Shown here one piece after another: positions 15,610 to 52,450 of a stretch of DNA of 64,000 bases; the stretch's first letter is position 1, and every line of letters starts with the position of its first letter. A program made the position numbers and the translations under genes. This DNA comes from Thermanaerothrix daxensis (GTDB lineage Bacteria > Chloroflexota > Anaerolineae > Anaerolineales > Anaerolineaceae), in NCBI RefSeq assembly GCF_001306145.1, contig NZ_LGKO01000005.1:744001-808000 (forward strand), in the 5' to 3' direction. The notes below the pieces were generated by a model that saw nothing but the letters and a program-made list of their open reading frames with translations, searched no databases and was not told the origin of the DNA.

Positions 15610-17136
15610 CTAAAGCAACAACCCTTTGGGGCGATACTGCAAGGCTTCGGCAATATGGTGAGGCTGGATCTGATCGCAACCTGCCAGGTCGGCAATCGTG
15701 CGTGCTACCTTGAGGGTGCGGTGAAAAGCGCGGGCCGAGAGTTGATAACGAGTCATGGCAGTGCGCAGAAGTGCGTTGGATGTTTCATCTAACCCGCAGT
15801 GTTCCCGCACCTCTGCTGGGCGCATATCCGCGTTGCAGGTAACTCCGTGATTGGCACGAAAGCGCTGACGCTGACGTTCACGGGCCACTTCAACCCGCTC
15901 GCGGACGACGGCAGATGATTCACCCGGGTGGCGGTCGGCGATTTTTTCATAATCAACGCGCGGTACCTCGATATAGAGATCAATCCGATCCAGCAGAGGG
16001 CCGGAAACTCGCTTTTGGTACTTGGTCACCGTGCCCGCTGAGCAGGTGCAGGCCTTTTGTGGGTCCCCGTAGTTGCCACAGGGACATGGGTTCATGGCTG
16101 CAACCAATTGAAAATTGGCCGGGAAGGTTAATGAGCCGTTGGCACGGCTAATGGTGACAATCTTATCTTCTAAAGGCTGGCGTAAGACCTCTAGCACCCG
16201 CGGGCTAAACTCGGGAAGTTCGTCCAGGAAAAGGACCCCGCGATGTGCCAGAGAAATCTCGCCTGGATGAGGCCAGTGTCCTCCGCCAACCAGTCCCGCG
16301 TGGGAGATGGTGTGATGGGGCGCGCGAAAGGGCCGCGTACGTACCAAAGGGCTGCCCTCAGGAAGTTGGTCGGCCACCGAGTAAATACGGGTGATGTCCA
16401 GCGCTTCGTCCAGGGTCAGCGCCGGCAGAATGGCAGGCATGGCGCGTGCCAGCAAGGTCTTACCTGCTCCGGGTGGTCCGATCATTAAGACGTTATGCCC
16501 CCCGGCAGCGGCGATTTCCAGGGCACGTTTGGCGTGTTCCTGCCCTTTGATTTCTTGAAAATCGGTTTGGACGATGCCGGGCAGGTCATTGTTTAATGGG
16601 ACGGGTGGGTGAGGCTGAAGGGATTGGCGGCCGAGCAAATGCCCAACTAGATCGTTCAGTGTGGCAACGGGATAGACTTCCAGGTCCGGGAGCAAGGCGG
16701 CTTCGGCGGCATCTACCTGCGGGGCAAAAACCCTCCGAAAGCCCTGCTGATGGGCAGTCGCAGCCATAGGTAAGACACCGCGAACATGGCGGACATTGCC
16801 ATCCAGGGAGAGTTCCCCTACTACCAGCGCTCCGTCCAGCGCCTCAAGAGGGATTTGCTCGCTGGCCATAAGTACTCCCAGCGCAATTGGTAGATCGTAA
16901 GCAGGACCCTCCTTGCGCACTGAAGCCGGCGCAAGATTGACCGTCACCCGTTTGCGGGGGTAGGCCAGACCGGTGTTTTTAATAGCCGCCTGGACGCGTT
17001 CACGGCTTTCCTGGACAGCAGTGTCGGGTAGCCCCACAATGACCATTCCAGGTAAGCCGGGTGAGGCATCCACTTCAACCTCAACGATGACCCCATCCAG
17101 GCCGATGACAGCGCACGAGAAGACGCGGGCTAGCAT
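15610..17136 (-). CDS. comM: ComM/YifB-family Mg-chelatase-like AAA+ ATPase
   Basis: A 508-residue protein with an N-terminal Lon-protease-like S5 domain (about 1-180, including [20 protein letters not shown]), a central Mg-chelatase AAA+ domain (Walker [15 protein letters not shown] near 220; Walker [12 protein letters not shown]) and a C-terminal helical domain ([20 protein letters not shown]). A zinc-binding insertion [15 protein letters not shown] is present. ComM homologues act as branch-migration helicases in natural transformation. The ATG is six bases after a TAAACT -10 box, with a TTGACA -35 at 17 bases, so the mRNA is predicted to be leaderless. Confidence 0.95.
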
Positions 17137-45991: not shown

Positions 45992-46527
45992 GGATTTTTT
46001 GCTCCTTGCAGGGCGAGTTTGGCCATGGCATAGCACCAGGTACTCAGGGGAAGAATGATCCAGGTGTAGAGCAGGAAGCCCATAGCAGGTAACCAATAAA
46101 GTGGGATCTCGTGCAGCCAAAAAGTGGCCGCATAGCGGATTTGGAGCCAGGTCGAGGGCAGTCGGGTAAGGAAGCGGATAAGGTGTGCAATCCCCTCAGC
46201 AACGAGGTTGGAGTCCCAAAAGAAGACCAGGAGAGCGATGCAACCAACCAACATTGTAAGTGTCAAGCCAACCATGACACCGACCCATTTCCAAAGGGTT
46301 TGGTGAGAACGCTGAACTTGGGCTTGGGCATAGGATTCCCAGCGGTTGACAAACGTGGGTGAAGGGGCCAGTAAGGGCAGGTGTTTGATTTCTTCTTCAA
46401 CCTCCTGCCAGGCCAAGTAGGTTTTGCGGCAATGGGTGCAGGTTTCCAAATGGCGCTGCATGTCCTGGAATTGAACTTCTGAACATCCCATTTCACAGAA
46501 CCAGGTTTCAATAGGCGGGTGCTTCAT
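45988..46527 (-). CDS. Zinc-binding anti-sigma factor, membrane-bound
   Basis: A 179-residue protein. The N-terminal ZAS-type zinc motif H26-x3-C30-x2-C33 (RHLETCTHCRKTY) belongs to the RsrA/ChrR-like anti-sigma family. Two or three membrane helices follow (WVGVMVGLTLTMLVGCIALLV, YWLPAMGFLLYTWIILPL). The start ATG 46527 has AAGGAG seven bases upstream and overlaps the sigma gene by 20 bases, so sigma and anti-sigma are made in step. It should hold the ECF factor at the membrane until a signal releases it. Confidence 0.9.
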   Translation of the reverse strand: MKHPPIETWFCEMGCSEVQFQDMQRHLETCTHCRKTYLAWQEVEEEIKHLPLLAPSPTFVNRWESYAQAQVQRSHQTLWKWVGVMVGLTLTMLVGCIALLVFFWDSNLVAEGIAHLIRFLTRLPSTWLQIRYAATFWLHEIPLYWLPAMGFLLYTWIILPLSTWCYAMAKLALQGAKNP

Positions 46528-47098
46528 GGGCTGACTCCTTGGAGGTATAACGGCTTTGCTGTTCTTTCCATAATAGCGCCATCTTCTGGCGGGCACGGTG
46601 GAGGCGGCTCTTAACGGCACTGGTGGAAATTGAGAGCATTTCAGCCATTTCTAATTCACTCATCTCATACCAATAACGTAGGATCAGGACGGCACGTTCG
46701 TGGGGTTCCAGGCGCATAAGCAACTGCTGAATGCGTTGGCTTTCCTCCAATTGAGTATATTGAGTCTCTGGGTTGGGGGAAGAACCAGGGAGAATTTCAT
46801 CCATCCATTCCTGGATGCTTTCCACAGGTGTGCGTCGCTTACGGAGTTGATCAATGCAGTAATGGGCTGCGATGGAGAGCAACCAGGTCAAGAACGAACG
46901 GGAGTGATCGTAGCGGTGAAGGGCTTGAAAAGCGCGCCAAAATGTTTCTTGAGCGGCATCTTCGGCTTCTTGAGGATCGCCCAGCATGCGGTAGCACAAG
47001 TTAAAGACAGGGGTTTGGTAGGCAGCTACGATCTGACTAAAGGCTTCTACATCTTGCGAGGCATGCTTTAAGAGGGCTGAGTCGGGCTCTGCTACCAC
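46508..47098 (-). CDS. ECF sigma factor, RpoE/SigW type
   Basis: A 196-residue sigma factor. Region 2: QTPVFNLCYRMLGDPQEAED, AAQETFWRAFQALHRYDHSR and FLTWLLSIAAHYCIDQLRKR. Region 4 is about 125-180 with AVLILRYWYEMSELEMAEML and STSAVKSRLHRARQKM. The start is a GTG at 47098. It heads a four-gene operon: anti-sigma, polymer-former, toast-rack lipoprotein. This organisation is typical of envelope-stress regulons in which the sigma factor drives its own operon. Confidence 0.95.
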   Translation of the reverse strand: MVAEPDSALLKHASQDVEAFSQIVAAYQTPVFNLCYRMLGDPQEAEDAAQETFWRAFQALHRYDHSRSFLTWLLSIAAHYCIDQLRKRRTPVESIQEWMDEILPGSSPNPETQYTQLEESQRIQQLLMRLEPHERAVLILRYWYEMSELEMAEMLSISTSAVKSRLHRARQKMALLWKEQQSRYTSKESAHEAPAY

Positions 47099-47177
47099 TT
47101 TGCTTCACCGCCTTGGAATCTCTGCAATGATCTACGCAGAAAACGGGTCTGGGTTGCGGAGGGGAATGGAGAATAAT

Positions 47178-48104
47178 TTAATCTGACGAGGAATCCGCCG
47201 ATTGGGAGAAGGGCACGGGTGAGGTGGAGAAATTCGAAGCCAATAAGACGTGCCCTTGAGAGAGCAAAGTAGCAGCAAAGATTAAGGCCGCACCCAGCCA
47301 TTGGGCCGGCTGCGGTCTTTCTCCCAGCAGGAGTGCTCCAAAAAGTGCGGCAAATACGGCTTCGGTGCTAAATAGAATTGCTGCATCTGTGGGTGGTGCA
47401 TGTCGTTGTCCCATCACCTGCAAGGTGAAAGCCAGGCTAACGATGAACACCGCCGAGTAGGCGGTCGCCAGAAGGGTGGTTCCGCTCATGGTTAGCCAGT
47501 TTCCTTGAGGCCATCCCCACACGATGGCCAGGTTGAGCAAGCCGCAAATCAGCGCCTGGCCTGCGGCAAACTGCAAGCCGTTCATTTGATTGGCTGCCTT
47601 GCTTACGACAATTACATGAAGGGCCCATATGAGGGCTCCACCCAGGATAATGGTATCACCGGTGTTTAGCCGAATGCGTAAGGAACCGCTACTGAGGAGT
47701 AGTGTTCCCAGGACGGCCATTCCGGCGGCTACCCAGACGTACCAGCCTGGGCGTTGATGTGCGAAGATAAAGAGCAGGAGTGGTATGATCACGACATAAA
47801 GGCTGGTAATAAAGCCGGCATTGGCGGCCGTAGTGGTAGCAATGCCAATTTGTTGAAGTGTGCTCCCTCCAAAAAGTAAAGTGCCTCCCAGGAGAACCCA
47901 ACGCCAATCTTTGGGATGAGTGATAAGTTTGAAGCGCAGTCCCAAAGCAAGTAAAAGCCCTCCAGTTGTGAAGCGCATTCCATTAAATATGAAACTGGTA
48001 ATTTCAGCAGAGGCGATCTTCTGCGCCACAAACCCGCTTCCCCAGATAGCGGCAGCGAGGACCAACATCAGGTCGGATTTCAATCGGGAATCATTCATAG
48101 CCAT
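47178..48104 (-). CDS. EamA/DMT-family transporter
   Basis: A 308-residue inner-membrane protein with ten predicted helices in two EamA repeats (LVLAAAIWGSGFVAQKIA; ILGGALIWALHVIVVSKAAN). Motifs FTTGGLLLALGLRF, GITTTAANAGFITSLYVV-like and LSTEAVFAALFGALLLGERP are typical of drug/metabolite exporters. Start may be 48104 or 48098 (two residues shorter, better SD spacing). A reverse TATAAT at 48153-48158 and a leader hairpin at 48118-48136 lie upstream. Substrate unknown. Confidence 0.9.
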   Translation of the reverse strand: MAMNDSRLKSDLMLVLAAAIWGSGFVAQKIASAEITSFIFNGMRFTTGGLLLALGLRFKLITHPKDWRWVLLGGTLLFGGSTLQQIGIATTTAANAGFITSLYVVIIPLLLFIFAHQRPGWYVWVAAGMAVLGTLLLSSGSLRIRLNTGDTIILGGALIWALHVIVVSKAANQMNGLQFAAGQALICGLLNLAIVWGWPQGNWLTMSGTTLLATAYSAVFIVSLAFTLQVMGQRHAPPTDAAILFSTEAVFAALFGALLLGERPQPAQWLGAALIFAATLLSQGHVLLASNFSTSPVPFSQSADSSSD

Positions 48105-48117
48105 ATCTCATTGCCAG

Positions 48118-48136
48118 GAAAAGCACTTTGCTTTTC
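48118..48136 (-). repeat. Hairpin in the leader of the EamA transporter gene
   Basis: A perfect 8-bp stem GAAAAGCA/TGCTTTTC with a three-base loop, between the -10 box at 48153-48158 and the start codon. It could be an operator or an RNA structure limiting translation. Confidence 0.4.
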
Positions 48137-48189
48137 TCGTCACAGGATAAAAATTATAAAAAGCAAAGGCAGCGAAGGTGGTGTAGGGT

Positions 48190-48396
48190 TTAGTCTTCGA
48201 GGGTAAAACCAATCTTAATGGTAACTTGCCATTGCCCTACATGATCGCCTTCGATCCGCCCACGGATCTCGCTGACTTCAAACCACTGTAAATGTCGCAC
48301 GGTCTGCGCAGCCCGTCCAATAGCGGTTTGAATGGCATCTTCAACACTTACATCCGAGGTGCCGGTAATTTCAATGATTTTATAAACCTTATTCAT
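48190..48396 (-). CDS. Dodecin flavin-binding protein
   Basis: A 68-residue dodecin. VYKIIEITGTSDVSVEDAIQ, AIGRAAQTVRHLQWFEVSEI with the flavin-stacking Trp (W38), and GRIEGDHVGQWQVTIKIGF match the family at full length. Dodecins assemble into hollow dodecamers storing riboflavin, FMN or FAD. An AAAGGAGA site precedes the ATG. It sits alone between the transporter and a long intergenic region. Confidence 0.95.
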   Translation of the reverse strand: MNKVYKIIEITGTSDVSVEDAIQTAIGRAAQTVRHLQWFEVSEIRGRIEGDHVGQWQVTIKIGFTLED

Positions 48397-48538
48397 CGCC
48401 TGTCTCCTTTGGCATTCACGGGTGGTTTTCGTTCACTACTCGGCAGGATTGAGATAACCGAGGCTTCCAATGCTCTGATTTTAAAAGAAAATTGCCCAAA
48501 ATGGGCATGGAAAACGAGGATCCTGGTATAATTTCACT

Positions 48539-48690
48539 TCGAAATAGGCTCTTGACCTTTGAAGATGGAGGTCAGTTGGAGACGCGAAGATCCTCGCTGT
48601 CCGTTCTTGTGCCTCCCCAAAAATCTTCTGATTGGGCACTTCTAAAATTTGAGTTTCTTTTTCACCCCTTAGCGGGTGATTTTTTCTTTT
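48539..48690 (+). ncRNA. Candidate small RNA with own promoter and terminator
   Basis: TATAAT at 48527-48532 would start a transcript near 48539, and an intrinsic terminator ends it near 48690, giving about 150 nt. The interior has mutually compatible pairings: TGACCT with AGGTCA, CCCAA with TTGGG flanked by GTG/CAC, and GAAA..CTC near the 5' end with GAG-TTTC before the terminator. GAAGAT/ATCTTC is an alternative. I compared it by eye with 6S, SRP, tmRNA, RNase P and common riboswitches and recognised none. It could be free-standing or a terminating leader of the SET gene. Confidence 0.42.
48662..48690 (+). terminator. Intrinsic terminator of the candidate small RNA
   Basis: TCACCC (48662-48667) pairs with GGGTGA (48674-48679) around a six-base loop, followed by TTTTTTCTTTT. 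No gene ends upstream on this strand, so it must end a non-coding transcript or attenuate the SET gene. Confidence 0.8.
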
Positions 48691-48840
48691 GGGTCTATTG
48701 ATTACAGGGGAACCTGCATGGAGGAGGTGATTGAACGGGAGTGTGTGCTTAAAGATCATTTGATAGATTGGTCAGATGGCCCTTTAGACATTTACGTAAG
48801 TCTTTAATTTAGTTAGATAGTTAGATAGAAGAGAGGATGT

Positions 48841-49374
48841 ATGCAGTTCAGTACGTATTCTTACTGCTCTCCGAAATTAGAATTACGTCCCTGCCCCGGG
48901 GAGAGAGGGCTGGGGCTTTTTGCTCGAGAACCCATTCATGCAGGGGAATTACTGGCTGTTTGGGGAGGCCAGGTATTAACGGGTGAGCAATTGCGCCTGT
49001 TACCCGTGGAACGTCGTGTTCACAGCATTCAGATCGAAGAAGATCTCTACATGGTACCCTTGACGTTTGGTGAGCCGGCGGACTATTTCAATCACTCCTG
49101 TGATCCTAACTGTGGCTTGAGTTCCCCAATTACTTTGGTTGCTATGCGAGATATTGCAGTGGGAGAAGAGGCTTGTTTTGACTACGCCATGAGCGATTCA
49201 AGTGACTATGACGAGTTTGAGTGTCACTGCGGTTCGCCCAATTGCCGTGGTATTGTCACTGGTCGCGATTGGATGCTGCCGTCGCTTCAGGAGCGCTATC
49301 GGGGTTATTTTTCTCCCTACTTGCAGCGGCGCATTGATAAGATGCGCCAGGGGGCACTAAGTACAATCCCTTAA
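48841..49374 (+). CDS. SET-domain lysine methyltransferase-like protein
   Basis: A 177-residue SET protein. GERGLGLFAREPIHAGELL is the first SET block; FNHSCDPNCG (N84-C91) is the signature; ACFDYAMSDS carries the catalytic-type Tyr115. A post-SET zinc site is formed by C128, C130 and C135 (ECHCGSPNCRG) with Cys87. These are the parts of eukaryotic-like SAM-dependent protein-lysine methyltransferases. A target is not known in bacteria of this type. GAGAGGA precedes the ATG. A SAM hydrolase gene follows after about 115 bases. Confidence 0.88.
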   Translation: MQFSTYSYCSPKLELRPCPGERGLGLFAREPIHAGELLAVWGGQVLTGEQLRLLPVERRVHSIQIEEDLYMVPLTFGEPADYFNHSCDPNCGLSSPITLVAMRDIAVGEEACFDYAMSDSSDYDEFECHCGSPNCRGIVTGRDWMLPSLQERYRGYFSPYLQRRIDKMRQGALSTIP

Positions 49375-49411
49375 AGGGCGCTTTGAGTAAGCAGTTCGTC
49401 GGCAGAGCAAG

Positions 49412-49436
49412 ACCGGGGCAGAAAAGCTTCCCCGGT
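49412..49436 (+). terminator. Hairpin after the SET gene
   Basis: ACCGGGG (49412-49418) pairs with CCCCGGT (49430-49436) with a short inner GAA/TTC helix. No T-run. It is followed directly by TATGAT (49442-49447), a likely -10 for the next gene. Confidence 0.6.
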
Positions 49437-49489
49437 TATGGTATGATTTTTCTGAACATCCTACCAGGACCTCCATCCCGGAGAGAAGA

Positions 49490-50284
49490 ATGACGCAAGT
49501 AATGGCCTTGCTGACAGATTTTGGATATCGCGATCATTATGTGGGTGTGATGAAAGGGGTGATCTGGGGAATTGCCCCTGACGTGCAAATTGCCGATATT
49601 TCCCACGCCGTGAGGCCTCAAAATGTGTTTGAAGGCGCCTTTCTTCTAGCCCAGGCTTATCCTTATTTTCCCCCTGAAACGATTTTTGTTGCGGTTGTAG
49701 ATCCGGGGGTTGGTACCCGTCGGCGCCCACTGGCAGCCCAGATTGGCAATTATTATTTTGTGGTGCCCGATAATGGGCTGCTGACATTCGTGATTCGCGA
49801 AGCCAGAAAGCAAAAGTGGCCCATGCGTTTTGTCCATCTGACTCAAACAGCCTACTGGTTGCCCGCGATTAGCCGTTCTTTTCATGGGCGCGATATTTTT
49901 GCCCCAGTTGCTGCACACCTGGCCACTGGGGTAGCTTTGGAGGCTTTGGGCCCCACGGTGGAGGATCCAGTTCTAATTCCAATCCCCGAACCCTCACCAG
50001 AGCAGGAGGGCTGGCGGGGGGAGATCATCTACATTGATGGTTTTGGAAATCTGATTACCAATATCACCCCTCTACATCTTGGGGAAAGAGAGCAATGGAA
50101 AATTCGCTATAAAGACCATGAGGTCAGGGGAATTGTCAGTACGTTTGGTGATGGGCAACCAGGCGATCTGATCGCCATGTTTGATAGTACGGGGTTCTTG
50201 AGCCTATGCATTGTAAACGGGAACGCCGAGATGACCTTAAAGGCTCAGACCGGGGAGGTTCTATGGGTGTTGCCCCAAGTATGA
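49490..50284 (+). CDS. SAM hydroxide adenosyltransferase (SAM hydrolase, DUF62)
   Basis: A 264-residue enzyme of the fluorinase/chlorinase superfamily that cleaves S-adenosyl-L-methionine to adenosine and methionine. ALLTDFGYRDHYVGVMKGVI carries the adenosine-binding Asp; VVDPGVGTRRRPLAAQIGNY, VPDNGLLTFV and SFHGRDIFAPVAAHLATG are family blocks, and IDGFGNLITNI marks the C-terminal domain. GGAGAGAAG precedes the ATG. It lies between the SET gene and the MoxR operon. Biological role in bacteria is not settled. Confidence 0.92.
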   Translation: MTQVMALLTDFGYRDHYVGVMKGVIWGIAPDVQIADISHAVRPQNVFEGAFLLAQAYPYFPPETIFVAVVDPGVGTRRRPLAAQIGNYYFVVPDNGLLTFVIREARKQKWPMRFVHLTQTAYWLPAISRSFHGRDIFAPVAAHLATGVALEALGPTVEDPVLIPIPEPSPEQEGWRGEIIYIDGFGNLITNITPLHLGEREQWKIRYKDHEVRGIVSTFGDGQPGDLIAMFDSTGFLSLCIVNGNAEMTLKAQTGEVLWVLPQV

Positions 50285-50309
50285 CCGACATCCTAAAAGG
50301 AGGTGAGCA

Positions 50310-51248
50310 TTGCTAAAGTCCTTTGTTGACCGTGTGCTTGAGAACGTCCAAAAGGTGGTGGTGGGAAAGGATGACGCCATTCGTCTAATCCTGGCAGCCA
50401 TTTTGTGTGAGGGACATGTCCTACTCGAGGATGTGCCTGGTACTGGAAAAACGACGCTGGCGCGTGCATTGGCCATTTCTTTGGGATGCACCTTTCGCCG
50501 TATTCAATTTACTCCTGACCTGCTGCCCTCGGACGTGACAGGGTTGATGTGGTTTAACCAGAAAACCCAAGATTTTGAATATCGGCCGGGACCAATCATG
50601 GCGAACATTGTGCTGGCCGATGAGATCAACCGAGCAACGCCGCGTACTCAATCGGCATTGTTGGAAGCCATGCAAGAGCGTCAGGTGACTGGGGATGGCG
50701 TCACTCGCCCCTTGCCTCGGCCGTTTATGGTGATTGCTACTCAAAACCCTGTGGAACTGGAGGGCACCTTTCCGCTGCCCGAAGCCCAAATTGACCGCTT
50801 TATGATCAAAATCGGGCTGGGATATCCCTCGCCTGAGGAAGAGGGCCAAATGCTGGAGCGCTTTCAAGCCATGGACCCGCTGGAAACGCTGGCGGCGGTC
50901 ACCGATCCGGCAGGCGTTCGTGAGGCTCAAGCGGTGCGGCGGGGAGTACGTGTGGAGGCTTCGGTGCGGGATTATATGGTGCGCATTGCCCAGGCAACCC
51001 GCGAAAACCCCGAGATCCAGTTGGGTGCTAGCCCACGGGCCACACTGAATTTGTTTTATATGGCGCAAGCCTGGGCGGCCCTTGAGGGACGAGAGTTCGT
51101 CTTGCCCGATGATGTCAAGCACGTTGCCCCTTATGTATTGGGTCATCGCCTAATTGTTTCACCGCAGGCGATGCTGCGCGGACGTCGCCGTGAGGATTTG
51201 ATCAGCGAGATCATTTCAGCAGTACCGGTACCGGTGGAGGTCGGGTGA
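50310..51248 (+). CDS. MoxR-family AAA+ ATPase
   Basis: A 312-residue AAA+ chaperone-like ATPase. Walker A EDVPGTGKTTLARAL (about 38-52), Walker B NIVLADEINRATPRTQSALL, sensor FMVIATQNPVELEGTFPLPE and arginine-finger region EAQIDRFMIKI. Start is TTG 50310 with a near-perfect AAAGGAGGTGA. MoxR proteins mature or regulate partner complexes, usually with DUF58/VWA proteins; here its stop overlaps the DUF58 start (GTGA), consistent with a complex. Confidence 0.95.
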   Translation: MLKSFVDRVLENVQKVVVGKDDAIRLILAAILCEGHVLLEDVPGTGKTTLARALAISLGCTFRRIQFTPDLLPSDVTGLMWFNQKTQDFEYRPGPIMANIVLADEINRATPRTQSALLEAMQERQVTGDGVTRPLPRPFMVIATQNPVELEGTFPLPEAQIDRFMIKIGLGYPSPEEEGQMLERFQAMDPLETLAAVTDPAGVREAQAVRRGVRVEASVRDYMVRIAQATRENPEIQLGASPRATLNLFYMAQAWAALEGREFVLPDDVKHVAPYVLGHRLIVSPQAMLRGRRREDLISEIISAVPVPVEVG

Positions 51249-52450
51249 AATTTCGTGCCTGGGCCACATTGATCGTTGGGGTCATTCTGGTGGGGACTCT
51301 GGTGCGAGTCCAATGGCTGGTTGGACTGGGATTGGCAACTGGGGTCATACTTGGGGTTGCCTATCTTTGGCAACGGCGGGCCCTGGAGCAGGTGGTTTAT
51401 CGCCGTCATCTGATCTACACACGTGGTTTTCCCGGCGAGACCCTCCCATTGCGTCTCAGCATTGAGAATCGCAAGCGTCTGCCAGTTTCTTGGCTGAGGG
51501 TACGCGATTCCTGGCCGTTAAACCTCTCTCCTCAGAAGAGCGAGGCAATGGCCCCCTCACATGTGCCTGGGCGGGGGTATCTAACCAATATCTACCACCT
51601 TTGGGGGTATCGCCGAGTGGTCCGAGAATTTCGCTTGCGCCTGGGCGCTCGCGGCATATATATGTTAGGACCGCTCATTTTGGAATCCGGCGATCCTTTT
51701 GGGCTGATTGAACGTCATGAAGAACACGAATTGCCGGCCACTGTGACTGTTTTTCCGGAATTAGTGCCTCGCACTGCATTGGGATTGCTCTCCGAAGACC
51801 CTTATGGGGAACGGGGCATACGTAAGCGTTTATTTGAAGATCCCAACCTGACTATTGGGGTTCGCCCCTATATGCCCGAAGACACCTTTCGGCAGATTCA
51901 CTGGCCAGCAACAGCCCGCACTGGTCAACTGCAAACGCGGGTTTATCAACCCATTGCCTCCCAGGTGATGATGTTGTGCGTTAATGTGGCCACATCGGAG
52001 CACCCCTGGCTGGGAACACTTCCCGAAGTCCTGGAGCAAATCATCCGTGTAGCGGCCTCGTTTTGTTACTATGGGATTGAGGATGGTTATGCTGTTGGTT
52101 TAGCCGTAAATGGTGGTGTGACCTCGGCTGATCAACTCATGCAAATTCAACCCGGTCGCACGATGGATCATCTGGCAATGCTTTTGCAGGCGTTGGCGGG
52201 AGTGACCCCGCTCATCACCCATCCGTTTGAGCGATTTCTTGTTCACACTGCCTCGCATGTCTCAATGGGGGCAACCCTGGTGATCCTGACCGCCTTAATT
52301 AATCCGCCATTGTTGGAAGCCCTAACCCTGATTCAGCGTTACCGTCATCATCTGATCCTGGTAGCGTTGAGTGAAACGCCACCGCCCTCGCTTTCAGGCG
52401 TCAAAGTCATTCATCTCCCTGGTGTCAACGAGGTTAGAGTCCAGCGATGA
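51245..52450 (+). CDS. DUF58-domain membrane-associated protein
   Basis: A 401-residue protein with two N-terminal membrane helices (TLIVGVILVGTLV; GLGLATGVILGVAYL) and a C-terminal DUF58 domain with FRQIHWPATARTGQLQTRVY. A central beta-sandwich part includes LGARGIYMLGPLILESGDPF. It starts at GTG 51245 overlapping moxR and ends overlapping the next gene (ATGA at 52447). MoxR-DUF58-DUF4129/transglutaminase operons are widespread and thought to act on the cell surface or on protein quality control; the substrate is unknown. Confidence 0.92.
   Translation: MKFRAWATLIVGVILVGTLVRVQWLVGLGLATGVILGVAYLWQRRALEQVVYRRHLIYTRGFPGETLPLRLSIENRKRLPVSWLRVRDSWPLNLSPQKSEAMAPSHVPGRGYLTNIYHLWGYRRVVREFRLRLGARGIYMLGPLILESGDPFGLIERHEEHELPATVTVFPELVPRTALGLLSEDPYGERGIRKRLFEDPNLTIGVRPYMPEDTFRQIHWPATARTGQLQTRVYQPIASQVMMLCVNVATSEHPWLGTLPEVLEQIIRVAASFCYYGIEDGYAVGLAVNGGVTSADQLMQIQPGRTMDHLAMLLQALAGVTPLITHPFERFLVHTASHVSMGATLVILTALINPPLLEALTLIQRYRHHLILVALSETPPPSLSGVKVIHLPGVNEVRVQR

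Follow-up and report, generated by a model that had tools for sequence, protein, structure and literature searches.

The interval between a dodecin gene on the minus strand and a SET-domain methyltransferase gene on the plus strand of Thermanaerothrix daxensis raises the question of whether its promoter-like sequence and its terminator enclose a stand-alone small RNA or belong to the leader of the SET-domain gene. Both readings had been offered by the initial annotation, titled for the small RNA, of the window analysed here (64,000 nucleotides, G000:C2:744001-808000, where G000 is the host genome). At the level of sequence the feature is confirmed as real. The TATAAT that had been claimed is present within a longer promoter element, the foldable RNA measures about 130 bases and has the suspected closing stem, and the terminator was recovered by a scan. 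The features of the locus are given below.

48190-48396, minus strand: dodecin gene, the divergent neighbour (NCBIfam dodecin, 3.5e-31)
48493-48507, no strand assigned: inverted repeat TGCCCAAAATGGGCA, lying across the position that a -35 element would take
48524-48532, plus strand: TGGTATAAT, which we take to be an extended -10 promoter
48553-48574, plus strand: first predicted hairpin of the leader, 48553-48560 paired with 48567-48574
48577-48655, plus strand: body of the leader, comprising two predicted hairpins (48578-48602; 48609-48639) and some of the 3' side of the closing stem
48662-48689, plus strand: predicted intrinsic terminator within the SET leader
48716-48735, plus strand: patch GGAGGAGGTGATTG, also given as GGAGGAGGTG, past the terminator
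48841-49374, plus strand: SET-domain methyltransferase gene, which the leader would serve (Pfam SET, 4.5e-13); the next gene encodes a SAM hydroxide adenosyltransferase

Neither of the two frames crossing the interval gave a match in Pfam and the body is not conserved, so that a protein gene was ruled out, in line with the initial annotation. The same holds for its statement that no gene ends upstream on this strand, the two nearest upstream genes, EamA and dodecin, both lying on the minus strand and a plus-strand frame of 79 amino acids that ends at 48531 being antisense to dodecin. No known RNA family had been recognised, and the Rfam search of the whole window was empty at the gathering score; the permissive threshold gave only a CRISPR-repeat match at chance level (E 6.7), and a known Rfam family was discarded on these grounds. 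The window holds no tRNA or tmRNA. The 6S RNA has a similar length and a closing stem. Its family (RF00013) was rejected for this element, the single match of the genome lying elsewhere, at G000:C1:887126-887305, and none in the window.

The TATAAT occupies 48527-48532 and forms part of TGGTATAAT. The bare hexamer is common in the window, with 21 copies against 12.4 expected; the extended element occurs 3 times against an expectation of 0.23. A consensus scan in which a -35 element is required does not list the promoter at 48527. Transcription would start near 48539, and the TGGTATAAT promoter seems to be that of the SET transcript. The palindrome TGCCCAAAATGGGCA, which appears in the hairpin list, is possibly an operator for a regulator of SET or dodecin. 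At the place aligned with it the sister species has CCAAAATTGG, a partly kept counterpart when read by eye; a 20-base match of the palindrome in another relative (G027) lies inside an ORF and was taken as chance.

Folding of the 152-base stretch that begins at 48536 gave -43 kcal/mol (z -1.87), and 7 of 200 shuffles were equally stable, a slight excess of folding over chance. Seven of the eight pair probabilities listed for the first hairpin exceed 0.85, and the predicted closing stem joins 48541-48551 with 48651-48660. The terminator reads TCACCC-CTTAGC-GGGTGA followed by TTTTTTCTTTT, with a hairpin of -8.5 kcal/mol. As the scan returned 8 terminator-like sites in 3.5 kb where 3.8 were expected, a single call of this kind says little; the conservation of the site in the sister species provides the stronger evidence for a terminator.

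The genus comparison comprised two genomes, that of T. daxensis and that of the sister species (G001), which were aligned over 46400-51300 of the window. Among the coding sequences EamA is identical at 737 of 927 positions, dodecin at 181 of 207 and SET at 442 of 534. The terminator with its flanks (48656-48692) is identical at 35 of 37 positions and is thus more conserved than the SET coding sequence; the extended -10 element keeps 8 of 9 bases and the first hairpin (48551-48576) 19 of 26, the best-kept piece of RNA ahead of the terminator in this one relative. The body (48577-48655) retains only 30 of 83 positions, and the remaining non-coding pieces show 22-68% identity. Constraint is thus suggested for promoter, first hairpin and terminator, but not for the body. 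The RNA of the sister species folds no better than its own shuffles (z +0.37), and its predicted closing stem is built from other sequence. The first hairpin contains one G-C to A-U double change on reading by hand; it was counted as weak, since MAFFT leaves the 3' arms out of register. The initial annotation had made the retention of helices and terminator in close relatives a test of the unit: most helices are lost in G001, the terminator is kept. The terminator occurs once in each of the two genomes of the genus, and a search of the genomes of 60 relatives matched the element in two, in G001 at the terminator and in G027 inside an ORF of 129 amino acids.

Past the terminator the patch at 48716-48735 keeps 15 of 20 bases in G001, where the sequence on its two sides is 33% and 22% identical; it may serve a short upstream ORF as ribosome site or else act in regulation. 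The frames following it, compared by eye between the window and G001, gave unrelated short peptides and hence no conserved leader peptide. Between 48690 and 48840 there is no exact TATAAT and no consensus -35/-10 promoter, the latter by the same scan that misses the promoter at 48527.

The family Anaerolineaceae was surveyed for the same order of elements. Homologues of the SET protein (E <= 1e-40) occur in 31 of 147 family genomes, 30 of which have a readable locus, taken as one copy each with the second copies in G022, G031 and G075 set aside. An exact TATAAT lies within at most 450 bases upstream of SET in 28 of the 30 genomes, the two others both belonging to genus g21. The distance from TATAAT to the SET start is 48-84 bases in 14 genomes and 170-402 bases in the other 14. 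All 14 long leaders, from 7 genera, carry a hairpin with a T-run between SET and a TATAAT more than 110 bases away; only 2 of the 14 short leaders do, and the absence from the other 12 implies that SET can do without the terminator. When the long leaders were shuffled by dinucleotides, 157 of 560 shuffles (28%) passed the same detector. The 14 long leaders, coming from 7 genera, are not independent and one of them (L063), with -8.2 kcal/mol, is a marginal case. The loose settings of the detector were chosen once the sequences had been seen; a stricter version passes 10 of 13 distinct long leaders and in Bellilinea selects different hairpins. Where it is known, the upstream neighbour of SET varies, being dodecin here and the RNase P RNA in L045 and L046. 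By eye, three leaders of the survey (L014 and L061 of genus g22, and L044) have a short ORF after the terminator; it ends in LDFR-TAA, either immediately before the SET ribosome site or within it. In the two g22 leaders a possible 5' hairpin uses some bases of the 5' arm of the terminator, so that hairpin and terminator look mutually exclusive.

The same layout was sought elsewhere in the host genome. In 464 kb, TATAAT precedes 34 of the 168 genes that have 80 upstream bases or more, SET included; when SET is excluded, a hairpin with a T-run follows in 4 of 8 long and in 0 of 30 short TATAAT leaders. Among the four that pass, L084 is a SAM riboswitch, L078 and L089 are tRNA genes, which sit between TATAAT and terminator, and L086 has no Rfam match. 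With a riboswitch leader and tRNA genes among these controls, layout alone cannot separate a leader from a non-coding gene. The riboswitch (L084:14072-14197, near 294,100 of G000:C2) belongs to class SAM-I (RF00162, 88.8 bits) and lies, together with its TATAAT and terminator, before an ORF of 1227 bases. L086 shows TATAAT, hairpin, T-run and ORF in this order near 16261-16468 on the minus strand; it may be one more attenuator, or else the start is misplaced, a TTG having been chosen in ORF calling.

Larger leaders precede SET in the genera Bellilinea and Longilinea, where 323-402 bases separate TATAAT from SET.

L036:2600-3000, L037:2057-2452, L038:2596-3000 and L039:2597-3000: four SET leaders of Bellilinea, long, with internal T-runs (L037 assigned to the genus by genus number)
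L041:2626-3000, L042:2629-3000 and L043:2675-3000: three SET leaders of Longilinea, long, with internal T-runs

The four Bellilinea leaders have a mean column identity of 90%. RNAalifold gave 107 pairs for them, 5 of which were changed on both sides; shuffles average 1.8 such pairs, with 6 of 500 reaching 5, and slid versions have at most 1. The covariation of this leader is modest. The outer helices 1, 3 and 4 never changed on both sides, and it is folding energy that speaks for them. These helices join bases before and after the T-runs, so that the read-through RNA would be the conserved form; by eye, the 3' strand of helix 1 can pair locally as well. In Rfam, L036 matched nothing, and the one match of L041 was at the level of chance. 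Nucleotide profiles of the leader, run over 506 kb including the window, had no match at the element up to E 20. A covariance model (R1), insensitive with only 11 pairs as the folds of the two genera align poorly, gave over 9 sources a single match, in L018 (E 1.3), and none in the window; R1 also matched at SET in G004, that is in at least one of 396 genomes of the class. A relation between the window element and these leaders was accordingly set aside, as none was detected by the profiles or by the insensitive R1. Searched as DNA in 101 genomes, the Bellilinea leader gave, besides itself, three marginal matches of 20-35 bases, in three genomes, G000 not being one of them. The leaders of both genera are candidates for a new structured class, and those of Bellilinea, strongly conserved, merit a separate study.

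Taken together, the interval is probably the front part of the 5' leader of the SET mRNA, with a promoter-proximal terminator that would attenuate SET transcription. This reading is favoured by three observations, namely that TATAAT follows SET as the neighbours change, that no exact TATAAT comes after the terminator and that the body is unconserved. Polymerase would begin just past the extended -10 box at 48524-48532 and, with about 150 bases still to go to the SET start codon, would meet the terminator at 48662-48689. Some of the polymerases would end transcription at this site, yielding an RNA about 150 bases long, and the others would read through into the SET mRNA, so that the terminator would set, and perhaps regulate, SET expression. 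What can be read from the letters is a promoter-like and a terminator sequence, their conservation relative to the body in one relative, and the repeated order of promoter, terminator and SET in the family; that the promoter is active and that termination is partial and regulated would follow from the model. A conserved intrinsic terminator does stand between promoter and start codon, as an attenuator demands. The interest of the locus thereby shifts from a stand-alone RNA to the control of a bacterial SET enzyme and, if attenuation is true, the conditions of read-through would show when the cell needs it.

A trans-acting small RNA, about 150 bases long and made from a promoter of its own up to its own terminator, with the SET promoter lying elsewhere, is a considerably less probable account, although bacterial small RNAs of this kind have just such a promoter-like site and terminator of their own, the terminator here is strongly kept, and two of the four other such layouts in the genome are stand-alone tRNA genes. 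In the sister species body and fold are not kept, and neither a body nor a seed was found conserved in this one close relative; the only matches among the 60 relatives were the terminator of G001 and the ORF of G027. Moreover, TATAAT goes with SET across the family, with no exact copy past the terminator, which ties the promoter to the downstream gene. Of the two possibilities in the initial annotation the terminating leader has thus gained from the association of TATAAT with SET and the retention of promoter and terminator, and the small RNA has lost ground with its body and fold; the tRNA genes, sharing the layout, keep this from being decisive. It is very improbable that the body is the aptamer of a riboswitch, whose ligand would decide between terminator and antiterminator. 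A leader terminator before a member of the SET-domain enzyme family, which uses S-adenosylmethionine, and the modest excess of folding would suit it, but Rfam is empty, body and fold are unconserved in the one relative within the genus, and no antiterminator rose above chance. The SAM-I leader in L084 resembles the element in having TATAAT, leader and intrinsic terminator before a gene, and differs from it in that the element has no conserved aptamer, Rfam match or detectable antiterminator. Very improbable, finally, is a decayed remnant, in which a longer structured leader of the Bellilinea and Longilinea type would have lost its body and left the terminator behind as a passive leftover. The highly conserved leader before the Bellilinea SET gene and the lack of constraint on the body in the window agree with it; the absence of similarity between those leaders and the element, by an insensitive test, speaks against it, and a terminator better conserved than the SET coding sequence is not decaying.

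Within the preferred reading, attenuation of SET by the leader terminator, upstream sequence was examined for pairing with the 5' arm of the terminator, by which the latter would be blocked; the best duplex in the window had -7.4 kcal/mol (p 0.5 against mononucleotide shuffles), and no sensor emerged. Among 11 leaders with room for such pairing none fell below p 0.05, the lowest being 0.065 in L010; four others had no room. Upstream of the terminator arm L016 has just 3 bases left for such pairing and L018 just 2, so that there is hardly any room for a sensor RNA. Because of the unconserved body, a trans-acting factor working on polymerase or hairpin, or else a fixed leak, would here be favoured over a ligand-binding RNA. 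The control looks fairly ordinary in kind, and a new stand-alone small RNA is less likely. RNA 3' ends arising in 5' UTRs as a means of control are described for E. coli from RNA sequencing in PMC7815308; premature termination is there seen in transcripts, and here it is known from sequence alone. There is, at rather low probability, a further possibility, that an undescribed attenuation system is shared by the SET genes of Anaerolineaceae, its promoter and terminator persisting and the RNA between them being remade genus by genus, with next to nothing in some, a body of 130 bases here, and leaders of 300 to 400 bases in Bellilinea and Longilinea, where it could be a new switch class and where, in Bellilinea, 5' and 3' helices close around the T-runs.

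The literature searched, most of it outside subscription journals, held nothing on structured RNAs or riboswitches of Anaerolineae, small RNAs of Thermanaerothrix, leaders or transcription attenuation of bacterial SET-domain genes, or the SET domain in Anaerolineaceae. Work on Chloroflexi and structured noncoding RNA is represented by PMC2864571, and nothing on the topic stood among the matches listed for Chloroflexi motifs. The SET product itself is a bacterial enzyme resembling a histone methyltransferase. Among the matches listed to PDB sequences (60 of 111) the best were ASH1L and KMT2-type SET domains (best E 4.3e-14), and a protein named BurB was listed as well, with an E value of 1.8e-12.
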